Assembly (NCBI GenBank): GCA_030744095.1
Contig: JASLRF010000387.1
Coordinates: forward strand, 1 to 12,596
From: Pirellulaceae bacterium
GTDB taxonomy: Bacteria > Planctomycetota > Planctomycetia > Pirellulales > Pirellulaceae
Length of the DNA: 12,596 nucleotides
Direction: 5' to 3'
The notes under the pieces are model-generated. The model did no database searches. It saw nothing but the letters and a program-made list of their open reading frames with translations, and was not told where the DNA came from. The first letter of the stretch is position 1; each line of letters starts with the position of its first letter. Position numbers and translations under genes: made by a program. Shown here piece by piece: positions 2,255-12,596 of the stretch.

Positions 2255-2794
2255 GTGACTAACGTAGCTCGCAAGGGTGAGTCGCCTAGCGACACAGATT
2301 GCGGAAAGCTGGAGAACGCCTTCGCGCAATACCGCGGCGAGCTGCTGGGCACATTGTACTATTTGGTCGGCAATCTGGAGGACGCAAACGACGCGTTGCA
2401 GGAAGCTTTTATCAAATGTTGGCGACACCGCGAGCAAGAGCCGGAGGTTCGAAACCTCAAAGCGTGGATCTTTCGCATTGCCCTGAATACGGGTCGCGAT
2501 ATCCGCAAAACGGCGTGGTGTCGCAAACGCCAATCGCTTCCTCAGGATGAAGCAGTCCTTGAGTCAACGCAGGATGGACCGCAAACCGCTGCCGAGCATC
2601 GGGAGCAACTGGCTCAGGTTGGCGAGGCAATTAAGCAGCTGCGGCCGGAAGAACAAGAGGTTTTCCTGTTGCGACAAAACGGCCAAATGAAGTACGAAGA
2701 GATCGCTGACGCCGTCGGCATTCCGCTGGGTACGGTGAAGACCCGTATGCGGCGAGCATTGTCCGATCTGCGTCTGGCTTTAGGTGAGACGTAG
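2255..2794 (+). CDS. ECF RNA polymerase sigma factor (RpoE-like)
   Basis: 179 residues. Region 2 spans about 22-90, with the core-binding helix NLEDANDALQEAFIKCWRH (40-58) and the DNA-contacting WIFRIALNTGRDIRK (71-85). Region 4 spans about 118-175, with the helix-turn-helix KYEEIADAVGIPLGTVKTRM (146-165), a textbook ECF motif. The start is GTG at 2255; AAGAGG (2241-2246) sits 8 nt upstream, a convincing ribosome binding site that decides this start. The next gene begins 57 bp downstream on the same strand and encodes a membrane protein with an anti-sigma-like cytoplasmic head, so that protein is the likely partner that holds this sigma factor inactive. The sequence is quite different from the divergent sigma factor at 1360-1986, so the two are not a recent duplication. 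Confidence 0.95.
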   Translation: MTNVARKGESPSDTDCGKLENAFAQYRGELLGTLYYLVGNLEDANDALQEAFIKCWRHREQEPEVRNLKAWIFRIALNTGRDIRKTAWCRKRQSLPQDEAVLESTQDGPQTAAEHREQLAQVGEAIKQLRPEEQEVFLLRQNGQMKYEEIADAVGIPLGTVKTRMRRALSDLRLALGET

Positions 2795-2851
2795 TTCATC
2801 ACGCAAGACACGCTTAGTTCTTAGCGCTGCTTTTGTCAGCGAGCAACTGCC

Positions 2852-5800
2852 GTGAGTTCGAACGAACAACTGGAACAACCACTGTGGGAGCTGATCTACG
2901 AGCTTCTCTCGCCCGACGAAGAAGCCGCGCTCCGGCAGCGTATCACGTCCGACCCCGAGCTGGCTCGGGCCTATGCCAGAGTCAGACTACAGTCAGAGCT
3001 GGTCGCCGCGGCCGCCAAGTGTGACGACACGCGCGGCACACTGAAACGGCCTGGAGACGAAGTTGAGGATGGGGACGATACCTCAGAAACTGGCGTCGTC
3101 GCCAGCGACAAACCTGACTTGGTTTCACCCAGATCACGGTCGCACGCCTTTCGCGCAGCGAATTGGATCGTCGCGGCCGCGGCCATGGGCCTGGTTGTGA
3201 TGTCCGCAATGTCGCTCTCGCAACTTCGCTCGCCCGCGCCAACTGAATTGGCAAGGACTGACGCGACTTCGCGTAGTTTGGCCAGTTTGAGTTCCATTCG
3301 GACCGTTGTGGCAACGCCCGCCGTCTGGAACAAAGACACGATGAATCCCATCTCGGTCAGAACATCGTCACTGGATGGCACGCCGGCGGCAACGTCGTTC
3401 GACCTGAAACTATACGACGCAGAGGGCGAAATTCAGCTGAACGAATCGTATGATACGGATGAAGCGGGGACAGCCCAGGTCGAGCTTTCTGGGTGGCGTG
3501 GCGCCAACACGGCATGGATGGAAGTCGCGGTGAAGGATGACGTTTCTCCACCTCTTGCCGCCTCAGCAAGATGGGTTCGTAGCGGGCATTTGACCCACCT
3601 GACAACAGATCTCCCCACCTATCAGCCGGGAGACACCGTTTTTTACCGTTCATTGTCACTCTCGCGATTCGACCAACGCGTCGATGGTGAAGTCTCAGTC
3701 GAATTCAACGTGTTGGACGATCAAGGTAGGCCCATTCCAAGTGCTAATCACCTCAAGTCCAGCGAGCGGGGTGTCGCGGACGGAAAATTCTCCATCCCAG
3801 CGAATGCCGCCTACGGGAGACTGACCGTTCAGGTTAGCAGCCCGGATAGTGCATTTCCCACACAACAGCGCGACGTACTGGTTCGTAAGATCGATATCCC
3901 CCGTTGGAACAAAGAACTGAAGTTGGCTCGCGACAGTTACGAACCGGGTGACAAAGTGGAAGCACGGCTGTCGGTCACATCGCAAGATGGTCAACCTGCT
4001 GTGGGCACACAACTGTCAATTGCCGCTTTTGTGGATCAACAACCGATCAAGTTCGACGCACCGAAGGCGATGACCGATGTCGAAGGCAACTATGACATTC
4101 ACTTTTCGCTGCCGCAATCGATCATTCGTGGTGACGCCGTCGTCACGGTGAACGTGGCGGACGATCAGTTCCAAGAGCAACTTGCCAGGGCGATTCCCAT
4201 TCACACTGGTCGCGCCGATGTGCAGTTCTTTCCAGAGGGAGGCGAATTAGCCGCTGGCTTACGCAATGACGTCTATTTTCAAGCGCGGGATTTGCAGGGG
4301 CAGCCAATCCACCTCGAGGGCCGCGTCGTCGACGACGCCGGCAACGACGTGGCCCGGGCCGTGACCGTTCACGATGGGCGAGGCAAATTCGCATTCACGA
4401 CGCAAGCGGGCACCGCTTATCAATTGATCGTGGATAAACCGGCCGGCGCGAAACAAGAGTTGATGTTGCCCACTGTTTCCTCTGACGCCGCGCTGGTATT
4501 GCACGCCAGTGGCCAGGTTTTCGATCCACAAGATCCGCTCGACATAACGTTGCGCATGCGCAGCCCTGATCGTTCGCTCGTCTTGGCGGCAGCCTGCCGA
4601 GGTGGTTTGGTCGGCTTGCAAGCGATCGAACGTTTCGATTTTCTGGATGTCGCGGACGGGACCAGCGAATGTCAACGACAATTGAAGTTGGCACCAGGAG
4701 CCAGCGGCGTCATTCGCGTCACCGTTTATGATTCCAGCGATGTGCCGCCAACACCGATGGCCGAGCGACTTGTTTTTCGCCGCCCAGCCAGGCAGCTGCA
4801 GGTCCAGGTCGATCCGATCGATTCCCTGCGATTGGGCGAACAGGTTACGCTCGGACTGCAAACCACGGACGAACAGGGGCAGCCGGCAGCAGCCACGTTG
4901 GGCATTTCGGTCGTCAAACAAGCACTGCTGAACGTCGCCAAGGACCAGTTCGCTAATCTGGAAACGCATGTTTTCTTGACGAGTGAAATTCGGAATGCGG
5001 ACGAGTTGGAGGACGCGAACTTCTTCCTGGGAACAAGCGACGAAGCCGCCACGGCGATGGACCTGCTGTTGGGCACGCAGGGTTGGCGCCGGTTCGTGGA
5101 ATCAGGACTCGATCAGATCGTGCAGGCAGATAGCGGGAAGCCCCTCCTTGCAGAAAACATGTCTGTGCCAAATGCCAAGTACTTTGACAAGAACGTCTCA
5201 GACCAACTTTTCGATCAACTTGTCCCCGTCGTGCTGGACAATCGAGACGCGATTGAATACGAGCGGGCTGTGCCTCCACCGTTAGCAATGTCCACCGCGA
5301 AACCGCAGTGGATTCGGTCTCGCGAAACGTTGTCGCAACGCTGGGGAACCGTATTAATGGTCGGCGGGTTGCTGGTATTGGTCGCGGTTCTCGGTTTGGC
5401 AATCACTCGCTCACTCGGCCGACCGCAGGTTTGGATCCCGTCGGTTGTAACCGCGGGAATTGCGACTGTGCTCGGCGTGTTCTGGATGGGATCACAGATG
5501 AATCCACTGGACAAGGTTGCGTACGCGCCCGGCAGTGTGGCCAGCAAACCGGCAGCTACGGCATCGACAAGCGACGAGGCAATCACGATGGATGCCATAT
5601 CGGACAGCTCCACCGCTGCGGACGCTGAGCCAAATCAATACGAAAGAGCTTTCAAGCAATCAGAGGCTCTCCAACAACCTCTTGCGGTTAGCCCCAGGCA
5701 AGCGTTCAGAATGAAGGCTGAAGCGCCCCGCAGCGGGGCTCTTGGGCAACGACCTGAAGGTTTGCGATTCTCCGCTGAGGCAGCTGGCGGTGGTGGGTTT

Positions 5801-6382
5801 GGTGGAGGTGGGGCCGGTGAAAGCGCTGCGCCAGCTAATGCCGCCAAGAGGGGTGAGGCCGTTGGCAAGAGTGCCTCTTTCGACCGTGTGCGAGCAGAGT
5901 CGAAGGAACCGCGGCAGTTGCAAGTGCCCCGCCCAACGTCGACATTCGCCAAGGAACCAACGGCCAAAGCGAAAGCGGACACTGAAGATCTTGTAGTGGG
6001 ACCAACCGCCGCACCGAAACCGTCCGAACCACAGCCTGCAGCCGCCGCGACGATCAGCGAGAGCGTGACACCCAAGGACGCGCCGTCGGCGGAAACGCCT
6101 TCACTCGAGACATTCGAACGACAACCTGTAGAGAAGAAGTTGGCCGAATTGGGGCGCAGATCTCACAGAGTCTACGTCAACGATTTCTTTCTGAGCGCCC
6201 GTCGAAGCGGCGCACCGTCCACGTTATTGTGGCAGCCGCTGGTCATCACCGATGCCAACGGACGTGCAACGGTCTCATTCCAGCTGCCCTCAGCTAATGT
6301 GACGTATCTGCTGCGAGCGGACGCACACGGCGGTGGCCGCATTGGATCTGGCAAGGCAATGATCGACGCCCGGCAACCGTAG
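2852..6382 (+). CDS. Membrane anti-sigma / alpha-2-macroglobulin-like (MG domain) fusion protein
   Basis: 1176 residues, start GTG at 2852 (no clear Shine-Dalgarno; no ATG before residue 113). Order of parts: residues 1-55, a helical acidic head (LLSPDEEAALRQRI, DPELARAYARVRLQSEL) of the kind that opens planctomycete anti-sigma proteins, without the zinc HxxxCxxC motif; first membrane span about 104-126; extracytoplasmic MG-type beta domains about 150-810. MG landmarks are TTDLPTYQPGDTVF (251-264, the macroglobulin 'TDRPIYRPGQ' site), FFPEGGE (459-465), AERLVFRRP (637-645) and LLLGTQGWRRF (738-748). Two more spans follow at about 832-852 and 861-880. Then comes a low-complexity Ala/Pro/Lys/Gly segment (885-1100, Gly-rich at 979-989) and a tail resembling the start of the A2M domain (LLWQPLVITDANGRATVSFQLP, 1125-1146). 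Only three cysteines are present and no CxEQ thioester motif. An N-in topology puts MG domains and tail outside the cytoplasm. Known: MG domains build protease-trapping macroglobulins. Inferred: it holds the upstream sigma factor and senses an extracytoplasmic signal. Confidence 0.85.
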   Translation: MSSNEQLEQPLWELIYELLSPDEEAALRQRITSDPELARAYARVRLQSELVAAAAKCDDTRGTLKRPGDEVEDGDDTSETGVVASDKPDLVSPRSRSHAFRAANWIVAAAAMGLVVMSAMSLSQLRSPAPTELARTDATSRSLASLSSIRTVVATPAVWNKDTMNPISVRTSSLDGTPAATSFDLKLYDAEGEIQLNESYDTDEAGTAQVELSGWRGANTAWMEVAVKDDVSPPLAASARWVRSGHLTHLTTDLPTYQPGDTVFYRSLSLSRFDQRVDGEVSVEFNVLDDQGRPIPSANHLKSSERGVADGKFSIPANAAYGRLTVQVSSPDSAFPTQQRDVLVRKIDIPRWNKELKLARDSYEPGDKVEARLSVTSQDGQPAVGTQLSIAAFVDQQPIKFDAPKAMTDVEGNYDIHFSLPQSIIRGDAVVTVNVADDQFQEQLARAIPIHTGRADVQFFPEGGELAAGLRNDVYFQARDLQGQPIHLEGRVVDDAGNDVARAVTVHDGRGKFAFTTQAGTAYQLIVDKPAGAKQELMLPTVSSDAALVLHASGQVFDPQDPLDITLRMRSPDRSLVLAAACRGGLVGLQAIERFDFLDVADGTSECQRQLKLAPGASGVIRVTVYDSSDVPPTPMAERLVFRRPARQLQVQVDPIDSLRLGEQVTLGLQTTDEQGQPAAATLGISVVKQALLNVAKDQFANLETHVFLTSEIRNADELEDANFFLGTSDEAATAMDLLLGTQGWRRFVESGLDQIVQADSGKPLLAENMSVPNAKYFDKNVSDQLFDQLVPVVLDNRDAIEYERAVPPPLAMSTAKPQWIRSRETLSQRWGTVLMVGGLLVLVAVLGLAITRSLGRPQVWIPSVVTAGIATVLGVFWMGSQMNPLDKVAYAPGSVASKPAATASTSDEAITMDAISDSSTAADAEPNQYERAFKQSEALQQPLAVSPRQAFRMKAEAPRSGALGQRPEGLRFSAEAAGGGGFGGGGAGESAAPANAAKRGEAVGKSASFDRVRAESKEPRQLQVPRPTSTFAKEPTAKAKADTEDLVVGPTAAPKPSEPQPAAAATISESVTPKDAPSAETPSLETFERQPVEKKLAELGRRSHRVYVNDFFLSARRSGAPSTLLWQPLVITDANGRATVSFQLPSANVTYLLRADAHGGGRIGSGKAMIDARQP

Positions 6383-7329: not shown

Positions 7330-10300
7330 ATGAAGCGGAAACATCCGACCCTTGATGCCACGATTGCGTCCTCATCGCAACTAGCCTTCGTGCTCGATCG
7401 CTTCGAACAGGCATGGGAGACAGACTCCTCGCCAGACATCACGGGCTTCATCAAAGATGTCGCAGTTTCTGAGATGCGGCGAACGATGCTCGTCGAACTT
7501 GTGGCGATGGATCTTGAGTTTCGCTGGCGTCGGTATGCATCGAACGGCGAAGTCTCGGTGGCGACGAAAGCCTGGCTGATTCATGACTACCTCAACTCGT
7601 ACCCGGAACTGGGGCCGCTTGAAAAGGTCCCATTGGTCTTGATCATCGAAGAGTATCGGGTGCGCCGGCGCTGGGGAGATCAGCCGTGTCACGAAGAGTG
7701 TTTCAGGCGGTTCTCCAACTTGGAAGGCGAATTGCAGGCTGGCTTGCTGCGTGTTGATCGCGAGCTGACTGCGGAAACTGAAGAAACTGCCGCCCACGAT
7801 CGTCAGGAAGAACTGGGGGACTCGCGGGGCAGCACACTGCGAGTCCGTTGTCCACACTGTCAAGAGCTCGTCGAGACTGTCCGCGATGGCTCGCTGTTCG
7901 AGATCTCTTGCGAGTCGTGCGGCAACTCATTCAGTCTTGTAAGACCAAACGAAGATCAGCCAGTCTCTGGTGTCTACGACACGATCGCTCACTTTGATTT
8001 GCTCCAGCGACTTGGAGTAGGAGCATTTGGCGAGGTCTGGAAAGCCCGTGATCGTGAGTTGGATCGCATGGTCGCTGTGAAGATGCCTCGGAAGGGACAA
8101 TTGGATGCCGAGGAAGCCGAGATGTTCTTGCGCGAAGCGCGGGCAGCCGCCCAATTGACGCATCCCAACATCGTCAGTATTCACGAAGTCGGCCGCGATT
8201 CCGATCGTCTGTATATCGTCAGTGACTTCGTCCCGGGCGACACGTTGGCCGACTACTTGAAAGATCAGCGTCCGACGGCGCGGCGAGCTGTCGAGCTCAC
8301 TATTGTGATTGCACGAGCCTTGCATCACGCCCATGAAGCGGGCGTCATTCATCGTGATCTAAAGCCCAGCAACATCATGCTAGACGGCGCCAACGAACCG
8401 CACGTCATGGACTTCGGCTTGGCCAAACGTTCCGCAGGTGAAGTCACGATGACGATGGAAGGACAGGTTCTTGGCACCCCTGCCTACATGTCACCGGAAC
8501 AAGCAAAAGGGTATGGATATATCGCTGACCGTCGGGCCGATATTTACTCGCTCGGCGTGATTCTGTTCGAGTTGCTCACTGGCGAAACTCCTTTTCGCGG
8601 GAACTTGCAGATGATGCTTCAGCAAGTTGGGTTTGAAGAACCGCCGAGTCCCCGGGAATTGAACGACACGATCAGCCGCGATCTGGATACGATCTGTCTA
8701 AAATGCCTGCAGAAGAGCCCCGATCACCGCTACGAATCCGCGGCATCTCTTGCCGATGATCTTCGTCGGTCTCTGAATCGTGAGCCGATCCGAGCACGGC
8801 CAGTCAGCAGTGCGGAACGGATCTGGCGGTGGTGCCGGCGGAAGCCAGCCATCGCCGGATTGCTTTTCACTGCGGGGGCAACGATCTGTACGCTGGTTGT
8901 GTTGGCCCTGGTTGGCTCTCAGTTGCAACTCGCACGCGAACGAGCACGGATTCTCGAAAAGGAAACCGAGCTTCATGCCGAGCAGTTACGATCTTCTAAG
9001 GAAGTTGCCTCGACGCAAGAGTATTACGCCGCACTAAGCAGCGTCCGCGAGCGCACGGCGGAGCGAGAGATGGGGTGGGCGTTTTCGGGGCTCGCCGAAT
9101 TGGAAAAGGCGGCGGCGCTCCAAGCTGACGTAGTCGATCAACACACCTTGCGAAACGAGGCCGTGCGATGCTTGACCGGGGTCGATCTGCGGCAAGCTGA
9201 AGCCGAGATACCGAAGGGGGCACTGCAAACCCATCTCGTGGCATTTCATCCTCAAGGAAACCTCCTGGCAGTGGGCACGCTCATAAGTCGTTTTCCAGTG
9301 CCTGTCCGTATCTACGAGGTTTCCAGCGGTGAATTGGTCCACGACTTGTCCATCCCCAACCTAGCGCGATTGAATGGAATTCGTCATATCGCATTCTTCA
9401 GCGGCGGCGATACTTTGGCAGTCACAACTCGCTACGGCTACCTGCATCGGTGGGATCTCAGGCAATCACCACCAACACGTACACCGATCAAGATGCCTGT
9501 TGGTGATAACACGAAATTCTCCTTCGACGAAACTGGTGACGTTGCGTTCTATATTACGGAAAACAGACTCTACCGGTGGTCGGTGGCGGCCGAGTCCGAA
9601 CCACAGTCTATTCTTGACGAAACTGTTCACAATCTAAAGGCAAGTGGTGACGGGCGTTGGCTTGCGGCAGACCGGTACATTCTTGACACTCGCAACAGTC
9701 AAGTGGTACGCGAACTTGACATTGACAGAGGTGCAAAATGTTTCAGCCGTGATGGGAGAATGCTCGCGATGGCAGATCCCGAGGAGATGACGATTGTTGA
9801 ACTTGAATCGGGGCTTACTATTCGTTCGTTCAAGGATCCTCGCATTGAAGCCCTTCATGAAGATGGCAGGATACAAGTTGATTTTGCATCGAATGATTCG
9901 ACCATTGTGACCGGTTCTGGGGACGGCCGAATTAAACTCTGGGATATCGCGAGCGGCAGCCTTCTGCTGAGTGTTCCTCTAGGAGCGGAAAACGTCTACC
10001 CAGTTGTCAGCCCCGATGGACGTGTGTTGGCAACGACATACAACAATCAGGCGATGCTGTACGACATAAATGGACCATCCTTGTTGACATCGACGGCACT
10101 GCAGGCCGGCACTCTGTGCGACTTCGACGTTGCGCACAATCAAATGTTGCTCGTTTGCGCGGCAGATCTGACTGAAGGTACACACGTCTCGATCTGGGAG
10201 GCTGATCGCGGTGTTGAGCTCGACCGTTGGGAAGTCAACACGACCTCCGAGCGAACTGCGCGCGTCGCGGTTCAGGAGGACGGGACCCGTTTGTTGCTTA

Positions 10301-11052
10301 GCCAACATCCGTCCAAGGCGATCCAGCTATGGGACCTGAATTCCGAGCGGACCAGCAGTTCCGCGGACACTGCGTCGCTCGTGTCGAGTGCCAGGATTAG
10401 GAGACCATCGCCGATAGCACTGTCGCGTGACGGAAACACGGCATGGACCATTAGCGATGAGTTACTTATCAACTCGTGGTCGCTCCCCGACTTCGTAAAG
10501 CAACTTCACTGGGATAACAAGATTATCGGGAATGCAATCGGTGTAGGCACGATAACAAGCATCGATGCGGGACTTGACTGGATAGTGGCCGGGACAAAGA
10601 GCCGCTCCGTTTATCTGTTTCATCGCACCGACAGCAAGCCGCGTCTTTCAATCAGCATCAGGGATGAAGTCAGCAGTGTCTCGCTCAGTCACGACGAATC
10701 GATTACAGCTTGCGGTACATTCGATGGACGCATTCACGTCGCGTCAATCCCAGGCGGACAACGTATCGCTGAATGGGTCGCTCATCGCGATGAAGTCACG
10801 TCCGTTCAGTTCGCGCATGACGATCAGCTCCTCGCAACAGGGTCTCGTGACGGTAGTCTCCGGCTTTGGCGGAGGGATGACGAGCATTTTCATCCTATTC
10901 TCACATTGCGGGCGTCGGGTTCTGTGGAATCCGTCCGCTTTTCGGGCGACGGAAGCCGGCTGTTCGGACGGATTCGGGGCGAGTCGGGTATCCGCGTTTG
11001 GGATCTTCAGGGGATCCATGAACGATTACGCGAGATCGATCTGGCATGGTAA
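7330..11052 (+). CDS. Ser/Thr protein kinase with zinc ribbon, membrane span and WD40 repeats
   Basis: 1240 residues from ATG at 7330. Residues 1-165 are a helical N-terminal region, typical of planctomycete kinases but without a named domain. A zinc ribbon follows with C174-x2-C177 and C194-x2-C197. The kinase domain is about 222-482: GVGAFGEV (229-236), K251, helix-C E269, HRDLKPSN (341-348), DFG (361-363) and GTPAYMSPEQ (382-391), all catalytic residues intact. After a basic stretch (WRWCRRKPA) comes one membrane span (about 508-530), a charged, coiled-coil-like helix (535-600), and a beta-propeller of degenerate WD40 repeats (630-1240). The clearest repeat units end at IKLWDI (868-873), IQLWDL (998-1003), LRLWRR (1177-1182) and IRVWDL (1221-1226). 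The charge pattern puts the kinase in the cytoplasm and the propeller outside it. Propellers usually bind proteins or peptides, so it may be the sensor that controls the kinase. It appears to be a single-gene unit, with about 950 bp free upstream and a convergent gene downstream. Confidence 0.95.
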   Translation: MKRKHPTLDATIASSSQLAFVLDRFEQAWETDSSPDITGFIKDVAVSEMRRTMLVELVAMDLEFRWRRYASNGEVSVATKAWLIHDYLNSYPELGPLEKVPLVLIIEEYRVRRRWGDQPCHEECFRRFSNLEGELQAGLLRVDRELTAETEETAAHDRQEELGDSRGSTLRVRCPHCQELVETVRDGSLFEISCESCGNSFSLVRPNEDQPVSGVYDTIAHFDLLQRLGVGAFGEVWKARDRELDRMVAVKMPRKGQLDAEEAEMFLREARAAAQLTHPNIVSIHEVGRDSDRLYIVSDFVPGDTLADYLKDQRPTARRAVELTIVIARALHHAHEAGVIHRDLKPSNIMLDGANEPHVMDFGLAKRSAGEVTMTMEGQVLGTPAYMSPEQAKGYGYIADRRADIYSLGVILFELLTGETPFRGNLQMMLQQVGFEEPPSPRELNDTISRDLDTICLKCLQKSPDHRYESAASLADDLRRSLNREPIRARPVSSAERIWRWCRRKPAIAGLLFTAGATICTLVVLALVGSQLQLARERARILEKETELHAEQLRSSKEVASTQEYYAALSSVRERTAEREMGWAFSGLAELEKAAALQADVVDQHTLRNEAVRCLTGVDLRQAEAEIPKGALQTHLVAFHPQGNLLAVGTLISRFPVPVRIYEVSSGELVHDLSIPNLARLNGIRHIAFFSGGDTLAVTTRYGYLHRWDLRQSPPTRTPIKMPVGDNTKFSFDETGDVAFYITENRLYRWSVAAESEPQSILDETVHNLKASGDGRWLAADRYILDTRNSQVVRELDIDRGAKCFSRDGRMLAMADPEEMTIVELESGLTIRSFKDPRIEALHEDGRIQVDFASNDSTIVTGSGDGRIKLWDIASGSLLLSVPLGAENVYPVVSPDGRVLATTYNNQAMLYDINGPSLLTSTALQAGTLCDFDVAHNQMLLVCAADLTEGTHVSIWEADRGVELDRWEVNTTSERTARVAVQEDGTRLLLSQHPSKAIQLWDLNSERTSSSADTASLVSSARIRRPSPIALSRDGNTAWTISDELLINSWSLPDFVKQLHWDNKIIGNAIGVGTITSIDAGLDWIVAGTKSRSVYLFHRTDSKPRLSISIRDEVSSVSLSHDESITACGTFDGRIHVASIPGGQRIAEWVAHRDEVTSVQFAHDDQLLATGSRDGSLRLWRRDDEHFHPILTLRASGSVESVRFSGDGSRLFGRIRGESGIRVWDLQGIHERLREIDLAW

Positions 11053-11130
11053 CCGTCTAGCCATCGCCGGATACGTCTGACGCGGCAGCGGGGCACTGTC
11101 CAGCCAAGACAACTGTCCGATTCTAGCACC

Positions 11131-11443
11131 CTCTCCCAAGTACGAGTTTAGCGTGCTCGTAAGATCCAACGCCGAAGGCGTTACACATCGTAGCCCAGGG
11201 TCAGCGGCGCAGCCGCGCCACCCTGGGTAAATGGAGTGGAAAACACTTGCACGCTGAAGGCGTGCGACAATCCCGAGATGTGCAACGCTTTCAGCGTTGA
11301 TTTGGATCGTTCGGTATCGCGCCCCAGGGTGGCGCGTCGCGGCTGCGCCGCGTTGCTTACCCTGGGCTACGATGTACAACGCCTTCGGCGTTGTTCGTGT
11401 CTAACTCGGCTGCGGTGCTAGTGGAATGCGTGAGGCGAGGCAG
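11131..11443. repeat. Palindromic repeat unit, copy 1 (two inverted three-hairpin modules)
   Basis: A 313-bp unit repeated at 11476-11789. Its core 11167-11393 is a large imperfect palindrome: arm 11167-11201 is the inverted complement of 11359-11393 with two mismatches. Hairpins in order: AACGCC-gaa-GGCGTT (11168-11182); CCCAGGGT...ACCCTGGG (11194-11227) with inner GCGGC/GCCGC; GCACGC/GCGTGC (11249-11265); CAACGC/GCGTTG (11283-11299); CCCAGGGT...ACCCTGGG (11323-11366) with inner CGCGGC/GCCGCG; ACAACGCC-ttc-GGCGTTGT (11376-11394). Hairpins 4-6 mirror hairpins 3-1, so the unit is one ~110-bp module plus its inverted copy. It lies between convergent genes. Confidence 0.9.
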
Positions 11444-11475
11444 CATCGCAACTTCTAGAGTTAAGATCCAGTCAT

Positions 11476-11789
11476 CTCTCCCGAGTACATATTTAGCGTG
11501 CTCGCAAGATCCAACGCCGAAGGCGTTACACATCATAGCCCGGGGTCAGCGGCGCAGCCGCGCCACCCTGGGTAAATGGGGGTGGAGAACATTTGCACGC
11601 TGAAGGCGTGCGACAATCGCGAGATGTGCAACGCCTTCAGCGTTGATTTGGTTCGGTCGGCATCGTAACCCAGGGTGACGCGTCGCGGCTGCGCCGCGTT
11701 GCTTACCCTGGGCTACGATGTACAACGCCTTCGGCGTTGTTCGTGTCTAACCCGGCTGCGGCGCTAGTGGAATGCGTGAGGCGAGGCAG
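11476..11789. repeat. Palindromic repeat unit, copy 2
   Basis: Direct repeat of 11131-11443, offset 345-346 bp, with about 22 differences over 314 bp by eye (roughly 93% identity) and a 32-bp unrelated spacer (11444-11475). The same six hairpins are present; the outer arms are 11512-11546 and 11705-11739. Stem changes are mostly confined to the left CCCAGGGT stem (CCCGGGGT here) and the CAACGC stem, where a loop base changed; the outer stems are intact. The junction at 11790 leads to non-repeated sequence. Confidence 0.9.
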
Positions 11790-11962
11790 TCGACAAAGTC
11801 GGTGGACAGGCCGTCACAGGTGGCGACGAGGTTGGTGAGGATCTGCCAGCAGCGACGTCCGCCCTCAAGCGAGAGATGCATGATATGAAAACCGTTGCAA
11901 ACCAACAACCAAATGGCGAGGAAGTCTGTCTCGGAAAGAAGGATGTTTTCAGAGTTCTGCCT
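11747..11962 (-). pseudogene. Possible decayed gene end running into repeat copy 2
   Basis: An open stretch of 71 codons lies between TGA (11963-11965) and TAG (11747-11749). It reads as a plausible hydrophobic/amphipathic protein segment (ENILLSETDFLAIWLLVCNG, then from an ATG at 11881 a 44-residue tail MHLSLEGGRRCWQIL... ending LAPQPG). The final CLASRIPLAPQP and stop are conserved in repeat copy 1 (complement of 11402-11444), so they belong to the repeat. The stretch overlaps the znuA-like 3' end in another frame and has no start of its own before residue 28. I do not recognise a family. It may be a gene remnant or chance. Confidence 0.25.
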
Positions 11963-12596
11963 TCAGCGCTTCGATGTTGCGTCTCATGATCGTCAGGTAG
12001 TCGTCTCCACGCTCGGCGGTCGTTGGTGGATGTTCGCAGGGCTGGAAGACAATGCTGTCGAGCCCCAACTGTTCTTTGAGTCGGGCCTCGATCGCCTTTC
12101 TGGGCGTTTGCTCCCAAAGGATGATATGGGCACGCTGCTTTTCTACCGCTGTTTGCAGTTGATCGAGCGTCTGATCGTCGGGCATTTCTTGCCCGTCGAG
12201 AAGGACGTTGGTCAGTTTCCCGCCGTAGCGACGAATTAGATAGTTATAGGCCGGATGTGAAGCCAGTAGATGTTCCTTTTTCAATTGGTCGGACAACTTG
12301 CTCAGTGCCTGGTCCAACGTGTCCAGGTCCGCCACGAGCGCGTCAAAGTTGGTCTGAAAATGTTCGGCGGACTCGGGCTGCAGTTTGGCAAGGCGGCGGT
12401 GAATTGCCTCGGCCTGCTTCTTGGCATGAAGGGGATCGATCCAAATGTGCCCGTCGATCCCCTCGTGACTATGCTCACCCTCGGGTCCGTGGCTGTGTGT
12501 GACGGCCCCTTCGTAACGCAAAAGTTCCTCGTTCAGCGAGTTGGACGTGTCCACAACTTTCGAATACGGCAAACTGATTTTGGAAATCCACTTCTC
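11949..12596 (-). CDS. znuA: Zinc/manganese ABC transporter substrate-binding protein (ZnuA-like), 5' end off the window
   Basis: The C-terminal 215 residues of a cluster A-I solute-binding protein, which captures Zn2+ or Mn2+ outside the inner membrane and passes it to an ABC permease. The frame stays open to the right edge, so the start is outside; a TTG at 12572 is internal. Visible landmarks: a His-rich loop THSHGPEGEHSHEG (from about 12498), typical of zinc members; GHIWIDP with the second metal-ligand His; LASHPAYNYLIRRYG with the third ligand His; and EHPPTTAERGDDYLTIMRRNIEALKAEL at the end, where the fourth acidic ligand is expected. The first ligand His lies in the missing part. The other transporter genes are not in the window and may lie to the right, upstream. 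Zinc is preferred over manganese because of the His-rich loop. The gene is convergent with the kinase at 7330-11052. Confidence 0.92.
   Translation of the reverse strand, partial: EKWISKISLPYSKVVDTSNSLNEELLRYEGAVTHSHGPEGEHSHEGIDGHIWIDPLHAKKQAEAIHRRLAKLQPESAEHFQTNFDALVADLDTLDQALSKLSDQLKKEHLLASHPAYNYLIRRYGGKLTNVLLDGQEMPDDQTLDQLQTAVEKQRAHIILWEQTPRKAIEARLKEQLGLDSIVFQPCEHPPTTAERGDDYLTIMRRNIEALKAEL

Follow-up and report, generated by a model that had tools for sequence, protein, structure and literature searches.

Our results suggest that the repeat region of the window (the whole stretch of DNA analysed, 12,596 nt) probably consists of two tandem copies of a REPIN-like, non-autonomous DNA element that lacks a transposase gene and belongs to the system of the subclass 1.2 Y1 transposases, a reading based on comparison of sequences. 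A build and placement like those of a REP system are well supported; the modules fall outside the GTAG-REP with a RAYT.

The preliminary description, in which four three-hairpin modules form two tandem nested palindromes between convergent genes, is borne out by the repeat structure (Table 1). Both units, which are 93% identical, lie in the 896-bp gap between the genes for a kinase-WD40 protein, ending at 11052 (+), and a ZnuA-like protein, ending at 11949 (−), and their inverted arms are 83–87% complementary. The ~313-bp unit had been taken for the palindrome itself; it is indeed the repeated block, but the dimer proper measures ~235 bp and the remainder, ~29 bp on the left and ~49 bp on the right, is co-duplicated flank. 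No subclass 1.2 gene was found in the window. Elsewhere in the window, an ECF-type sigma factor adjoins a 1176-aa MG2-domain protein (2255–6382) and a second sigma factor is found with a kinase (1–2001); we take this set of sigma factor, MG2 and kinase genes to be planctomycete-like.

Table 1. Coordinates of the repeat units, modules, hairpins and neighbouring genes in the window
Feature	Position	Strand	Remarks
Repeat unit 1 (313 bp): two three-hairpin modules, inverted to each other, and co-duplicated flanks	11131–11443		93% identity with unit 2
Repeat unit 2, direct tandem repeat of unit 1	11476–11789		spacing 345–346
Direct repeats	11131–11234/11476–11579 and 11233–11443/11579–11789		93% identity; spacing 345–346
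Inverted arms, unit 1	11167–11213 with 11347–11393		47 nt; 87% complementary
Inverted arms, unit 2	11512–11558 with 11693–11739		83% complementary
Module 1, H3-H2-H1 when read on the minus strand	11163–11273	−	R1 80.1 bits, not independent, as the module is one of the 45 R1 training rows
Module 1, match to RF01687	11168–11227	−	29.9 bits
Module 2, inverted partner of module 1	11275–11397	+	R1 69.8 bits; RF01687 17.3 bits at 11360–11392
Module 3	11508–11619	−	R1 71.6 bits; RF01687 29.9 bits at 11513–11572
Module 4	11621–11743	+	R1 69.6 bits; RF01687 17.3 bits at 11706–11738
H1, outer hairpin	11167–11183 (module 1); 11377–11394, 11512–11528, 11723–11740 (others)		
H2, CCCAGGGT ... ACCCTGGG around a GC-rich inner stem	11194–11227 (module 1); 11323–11366, 11539–11572, 11669–11712 (others)		
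H3, inner hairpin	11249–11265 (module 1); 11282–11299, 11595–11611, 11628–11645 (others)		
GTAG 5' foot of H2, module 1	11190–11193	+	
H2 foot, modules 2 and 4	11367–11370, 11713–11716		as CTAC
H2 foot, module 3	11535–11538		ATAG
Fast-changing H2–H3 spacer	11228–11248 (with 11300–11322)		
Left neighbour, Ser/Thr kinase with WD40 repeats	7330–11052	+	converges on the repeat
Right neighbour, ZnuA-like metal-binding protein	11949–12596	−	converges on the repeat; runs off the window

Each of the four modules can be read as three hairpins: H1 (AACGCC-gaa-GGCGTT), H2 (CCC[A/G]GGGT-inner stem-ACCCTGGG) and H3 (GCACGC-tgaag-GCGTGC or AACGC-tttca-GCGTT). Modules 1, 2 and 4 have GTAG as the foot of H2, and module 3 has ATAG. 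H3 is likely to be a paralogue of H1, the longest run shared by the two within a module being 7.0 compared with 4.3 ± 0.1 in shuffled pairs. Folded as RNA, unit 1 reaches −176.2 kcal/mol on the plus strand (z −10.8) and −167.8 kcal/mol on the minus strand (z −10.4), with none of 100 shuffles as low, and much of this energy comes from the pairing of one module with its inverted partner. Folded as DNA, the pieces containing H1 and H2 give z-scores of −3.7 to −4.6 (none of 200 shuffles as low), and the central piece with both H3, which pair with each other, −2.4 to −2.9. Between the two units the hairpins and feet differ by 4 changes in 168 positions and the spacers by 10 (nine substitutions and one insertion) in 44, a significant difference (Fisher p 3e-5) with borders drawn by hand.

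The same build recurs in related modules. A hairpin descriptor without a foot requirement returned 95 modules at 57 of 74 loci, in which H2 is immediately preceded by AG in 89 cases; T, C or A mostly stands before the AG, TAG being read in 62, and the first base of the four-letter foot varies freely (A 38, T 24, G 22, C 11); among chance modules AG was found in three of nine. The gap between H1 and H2 is 12 nt in 53 of 94 of these modules and the H2–H3 spacer is 18–26 nt in 87 of 94, and a CT cleavage dinucleotide at a constant distance from H1 or H3 was not found in them. Hairpins of the GTAG superfamily of REPs stand directly on a 5' foot that reads GTAG or GTGG. Cutting or selection by two TnpA-REP enzymes depended most on the final two bases of GTAG, while the E. 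coli enzyme tolerated no change at any of the four, in the sections of PMC8266576 cited here. The stems vary while pairing, as expected from the preliminary description, with 69 distinct H1, 30 H2 arms and 69 H3 among the 95 modules; since the descriptor demands pairing, it is the chance control (nine modules in 387 kb), and not covariation, that carries this point.

A scan of public genomes with a relaxed pattern recovered at least 119 stretches, a few of which resemble plain coding sequence, from records titled Planctomycetes, Acidobacteria, Verrucomicrobia, KSB1, Armatimonadetes and others. Alignment A1 was made from 45 of 85 non-redundant modules and model R1 was built from it; its module order is H3, ~20–28 nt, H2, 12–13 nt, H1. 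In A1 only H3 varies, H1 and H2 being fixed by the search pattern, and both-side changes in H3 occupy 24 cells compared with a shuffled mean of 8.2. R1 matched all 18 genomes searched, which had been picked for carrying the relaxed pattern, with 7 to 144 matches each (up to 150 candidates scored per genome), and some of these genomes hold the matches as (−,+) pairs ~10 bp apart. It also matched 58 of 392 genomes taken as Planctomycetota. With 2 to 150 candidates scored per genome in these searches, copy numbers and absences are to be read as lower bounds, and three of the genomes (G010, G007 and G011) had also belonged to the discovery set. The matches contradict a unique locus or an assembly artefact. 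That the region is a satellite-like tandem repeat of one locus, or such an artefact, is consistent with the exact 31-base pattern having no match in the genome contigs searched and with the lack of a close copy of the whole unit in the 392 Planctomycetota genomes (two candidates scored per genome); given R1 matches in all the pattern-carrying genomes and in 58 genomes of one phylum, we regard it as hardly credible. Partial matches to the unit were found in 20 of the 392 genomes, the best with 90% identity over 60 bases and the longest with 70% over ~220 bases.

As in REP systems, the family occurs as inverted doublets, in intergenic DNA and in many copies per genome, which agrees with the REP/BIME-like layout first noted for the window; 35 of 139 modules lie inside predicted ORFs of at least 120 aa. 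Direct rather than inverted tandem runs of modules were observed in a control stretch (L235:6447–6879) and in a Verrucomicrobia contig (L062:3378–4217), with periods of ~165 and 270 bp.

A link to one class of HuH transposase is provided by the surroundings of Y1 genes. Y1_Tnp (PF01797) genes occur in all 18 R1-carrying genomes (118 matches, 110 loci examined), and 44 of the 110 loci carry the signature of subclass 1.2, leaving 66. R1 modules (E ≤ 0.001, best strand kept where matches overlap) lie in the (−,+) layout on both sides of 16 of the 44 subclass 1.2 genes; when genes with a module on one side only are counted as well, the number is 23. At the other 66 loci they were found only at L182, a fragment scoring with subclass 1.2, and the random control, 20 stretches with a total of 387 kb, gave 7 matches at E ≤ 0.001, confined to 3 of the stretches. 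This layout, a minus module on the left and a plus module on the right, is that of the window. Several flanks missed by R1 contain inverted repeats that share this build but differ in stem sequence. Of the 38 subclass 1.2 genes with full flanks, 30 have a module in the correct orientation by a stem-agnostic descriptor (hairpin, 6–14 nt, AG, hairpin, 10–40 nt, hairpin), 16 of them on both sides. Among the 51 fully flanked Y1 genes of other kinds, a group from which the fragments or broken copy L120, L169, L172 and L182 were excluded, the count is 2, neither on both sides, and 387 kb of control gave 6. This descriptor was written after the first flanks had been seen; its rules were then applied unchanged to 30 new loci, one per genome and with slightly narrower flanks, and a correctly oriented module was found at 22 of the 28 with full flanks (both sides in 12). 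Module-like matches in the wrong orientation were seen at 9 of 38 loci in the first set and 7 of 28 in the second. The modules of the window thus have the architecture and orientation found at the ends of subclass 1.2 TnpA elements. The resemblance of H2 between dispersed and transposase-flanking modules of one genome is weak, which counts against the link: the own genome ranked first in only 5 of 13 cases, with a mean rank of 5.5 against 8.5 expected.

The transposase profile matches solved TnpA chains of the IS200/IS605 type, including that of ISHp608 (2a6m). All four transposase proteins scanned are assigned to NF033573 ('IS200/IS605'); the RAYT model NF047646 is absent in two and far below its cut-off in the other two. 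Together with the module counts at Y1 genes (2 of 51 against 30 of 38), these scores rule out a classical RAYT (Y1 class 2, YI..NP) as the partner. The preliminary guess of a non-autonomous mobile element with a RAYT-like Y1 enzyme elsewhere is supported, with the IS200-like subclass 1.2 as the associated transposase in place of a classical RAYT. Two further observations concern Y1 loci. A KSB1 subclass 1.2 gene (L126:1221–2339) has modules of lower G+C that score 12–25 bits with R1 and are perhaps diverged forms of the same ends, and several Y1 genes outside subclass 1.2 (e.g. L187, L209, L215 and L219) lie within long inverted repeats, as expected of REPtrons or TIRtrons.

Gene and modules also co-occur across genomes. 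RF01687, the Rfam model of Acido-Lenti-1, was found at E ≤ 0.001 in 99 of the 392 Planctomycetota genomes (79 above gathering) and subclass 1.2 genes in 86. Both were present in 76, RF01687 only in 23, the gene only in 10 and neither in 283 (odds ratio 94, p about 1e-48), so that RF01687 occurs in 76 of 86 carriers versus 23 of 306 others. Among 189 genomes taken as Acidobacteriota the corresponding counts are 35, 11, 5 and 138 (odds ratio 88), that is 35 of 40 carriers versus 11 of 149 others. The p values are uncorrected for phylogeny and inflated by shared ancestry; the physical linkage is independent of them. For R1 in Planctomycetota, leaving out G010, the counts are 40 (both), 17 (R1 only), 45 (gene only) and 289 (neither). 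Speaking against the association, no subclass 1.2 gene was detected in 28 of the 105 Planctomycetota genomes with R1 or RF01687 matches, and 9 of the 86 carriers had a match to neither model.

RF01687 corresponds to H2, GGCUA and H1 of a window-type module. In the window it scores below its gathering threshold of 37 bits by cmscan (29.9 bits for modules 1 and 3, 17.3 bits for modules 2 and 4), and it is present in 52 of the 58 R1-positive Planctomycetota genomes. We scanned 20 subclass 1.2 loci with it, hand-picked, most of them for carrying modules: in four (L125, L133, L138 and L270) it reached gathering on both sides of the gene, in three more it matched below gathering, and in 13 there was no match at E ≤ 0.01. 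Acido-Lenti-1 resembles the window-type modules in flanking subclass 1.2 genes, but differs in that its model lacks H3 and the inverted partner. As RF01687 misses most window-type modules, the Rfam family and these modules only overlap; they are overlapping but distinct subfamilies of one build. Acido-Lenti-1 is associated with group II introns; this association finds no support in the 18 acidobacterial pattern loci, where Rfam at gathering returned one tRNA, no RF01687 and no group II intron. Weinberg 2010 (PMC2864571) presents the family as a candidate RNA from Acidobacteria and Lentisphaerae, and Acido-Lenti-1 has been annotated beside protease genes in Tannerella (PMC13298647), in the parts of these sources cited here. 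No earlier link of RF01687 or of three-hairpin repeats to a transposase was found in the main texts of the openly accessible literature searched.

Rfam lists RF01687 as 'Gene; sRNA', and the modules could accordingly be a structured RNA (Acido-Lenti-1), a small RNA gene or a 3'-UTR element, with the transposase link secondary. The preservation of hairpins while spacers decay, in the window and in two genomes, agrees with this; however, the modules occur in inverted pairs on both strands, those between co-directional neighbours agree with the direction of the genes in 21 cases and oppose it in 19, and no sigma-70-like promoter, the only type looked for, was found in 10950–12000. In addition, the AG of the almost invariant foot lies on the other strand from that of the Rfam model, and the modules flank one class of HuH transposase. 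We consider an RNA of this kind improbable.

The decay of spacers between conserved hairpins was seen in ten dimers each from two genomes, G012 and G010, picked from the top matches of R1, which favours intact hairpins, and compared on a free alignment: outer flanks share 29–37% identity and spacers 34–44%, H1, H3 and H2 arms 86–100%, and feet 67–89%. The ends of the dimers are sharp, mostly TCTTT...AAAGA in G012, a tail that the dimers of the window lack. The unrelated outer flanks show that dimers were dispersed in the past. The hairpins may be kept intact by a present use to the host, as bidirectional transcription ends or as protectors of mRNA 3' ends, and such a host role, which is possible though on the doubtful side, is compatible with the transposase-element reading rather than exclusive of it. 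It is consistent with the constraint on the hairpins, with the location of the window repeat between convergent genes and with a depletion from divergent (promoter) gaps (5 of 56 versus 68 of 258, p 0.005), gap classes resting on a simple longest-ORF caller and L026, L075 and L084 having been dropped beforehand as coding or unrelated sequence. However, the enrichment between convergent genes that had been predicted is not significant (16 of 56 gaps versus 48 of 258, p 0.10), and the proposed role in termination is not borne out, terminator-like sites (a stem with a T run) numbering 2 versus 0.9 ± 1.0 in shuffles, which also dismisses an intrinsic terminator as the definition of the element.

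Alternatively, the hairpins may be kept alike by mutation bias, through template switching in palindromes, exchange between copies or transposase-driven replacement, with neither host function nor sRNA. The inner parts of H2 are alike within one genome (97–99% in G012, 79–82% in G010), and array copy number differs between sister genomes, as this would predict; but exchange would need to end abruptly at the borders of the hairpins and leave the spacers untouched, and the copies compared were chosen by R1, which favours intact hairpins. We judge this account rather unlikely.

No insertion event was found in the sister genomes G531 and G573, where all seven region pairs keep their flanks (89–98% identity) on both sides of the arrays. 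The Acido-Lenti-1 copies of these genomes (L308–L321) lie in few arrays at shared sites, and their number changes, for example six versus two at one site; local tandem copy-number change of modules has thus taken place. The tandem units of the window fit such local amplification because flanking DNA has been duplicated with them. A segment of ~9 kb bounded by arrays in G531 (L310:2375–11449) has no counterpart in G573 (L311), and arrays may promote rearrangement.

The observations on the element reading can be assembled into a mechanism. Each module comprises, from the outside in, H1, ~12 nt ending in [T/C/A]AG, H2 standing on this foot, a spacer usually of 18–26 nt, and H3, and modules of the same build and orientation form both ends of elements that carry a subclass 1.2 HuH Y1 transposase. 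The site that the transposase would recognise is H2 together with its AG foot, on single-stranded DNA such as that of the replication fork, by analogy with GTAG plus hairpin for TnpA-REP; we infer binding, cutting and transposition by subclass 1.2 TnpA. The transposase would once have spread dimers that had lost, or never had, its gene, and the two tandem units of the window would reflect a later local duplication and not two insertions. We also put forward, at about even weight, a wider proposal: that Acido-Lenti-1, rather than being a family of RNAs, is the end recognised in a REP-like system of its own that crosses phyla, with three-hairpin modules served by the orphan IS200-like TnpA of subclass 1.2, and that, with hairpins constant and spacers of near-fixed length drifting, the transposase, and perhaps the host too, would read the module as single-stranded DNA with structures at set intervals. 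A function of the hairpins for the host is possible. This proposal joins two loose ends, an Rfam 'sRNA' so far without a function and a HuH transposase subclass described without a DNA partner. If it is true, sites annotated as Acido-Lenti-1, such as those in Tannerella, call for reinterpretation as DNA that may derive from a transposon, and for subclass 1.2 there is a substrate, conserved in foot and spacing, that can be put to the test. The family poses the question of what keeps hairpins intact while spacers randomise.

With IS200/IS605 elements (ISHp608 and its kin) the present system shares a homologous catalytic domain and hairpin-based ends; to our knowledge, IS200/IS605 ends are not inverted repeats of three hairpins. 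The transposases agree with the subclass 1.2 TnpA-Y1 proteins of Quentin 2018 (PMC6006769) in the motifs DH[IV]H, WQ and YI..Q..HH and a length of ~150 aa. The sections of that paper cited here report no REP and generally no IS200 ends for the subclass, and place it mostly in Cyanobacteria and Bacteroidetes, whereas many of the genes analysed here, which come from genomes titled Planctomycetes, Acidobacteria, Verrucomicrobia and KSB1, are bounded by inverted three-hairpin ends. TIRtrons, in the part of their description used here (Di Nocera 2013, PMC3733652), also comprise Y1 genes (TIRYT) between inverted repeats that are dispersed in some species, with some dimers; their protein class (20 of 26 TIRYTs in subclass 2.1, most with a GGGGWSAS-type motif; PMC6006769) and their repeat differ from subclass 1.2 and the three-hairpin modules, although the modules may overlap with the R. 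baltica or O. terrae families of PMC3733652. REP, BIME and REPIN are alike in having a hairpin on a 5' foot ending in AG, in inverted doublets and tandem runs, in a mostly intergenic position and in occurring beside a HuH Y1 transposase, and the dimer spacers of some REPs are likewise alike in length and different in sequence (PMC3733652 and PMC8266576, in the sections cited). The novelty with respect to REP and REPIN lies in three hairpins per end, at near-fixed spacing within the module, in place of one; in the AG foot, [T/C/A]AG rather than a strict GTAG; and in an IS200-like subclass 1.2 transposase instead of a RAYT.
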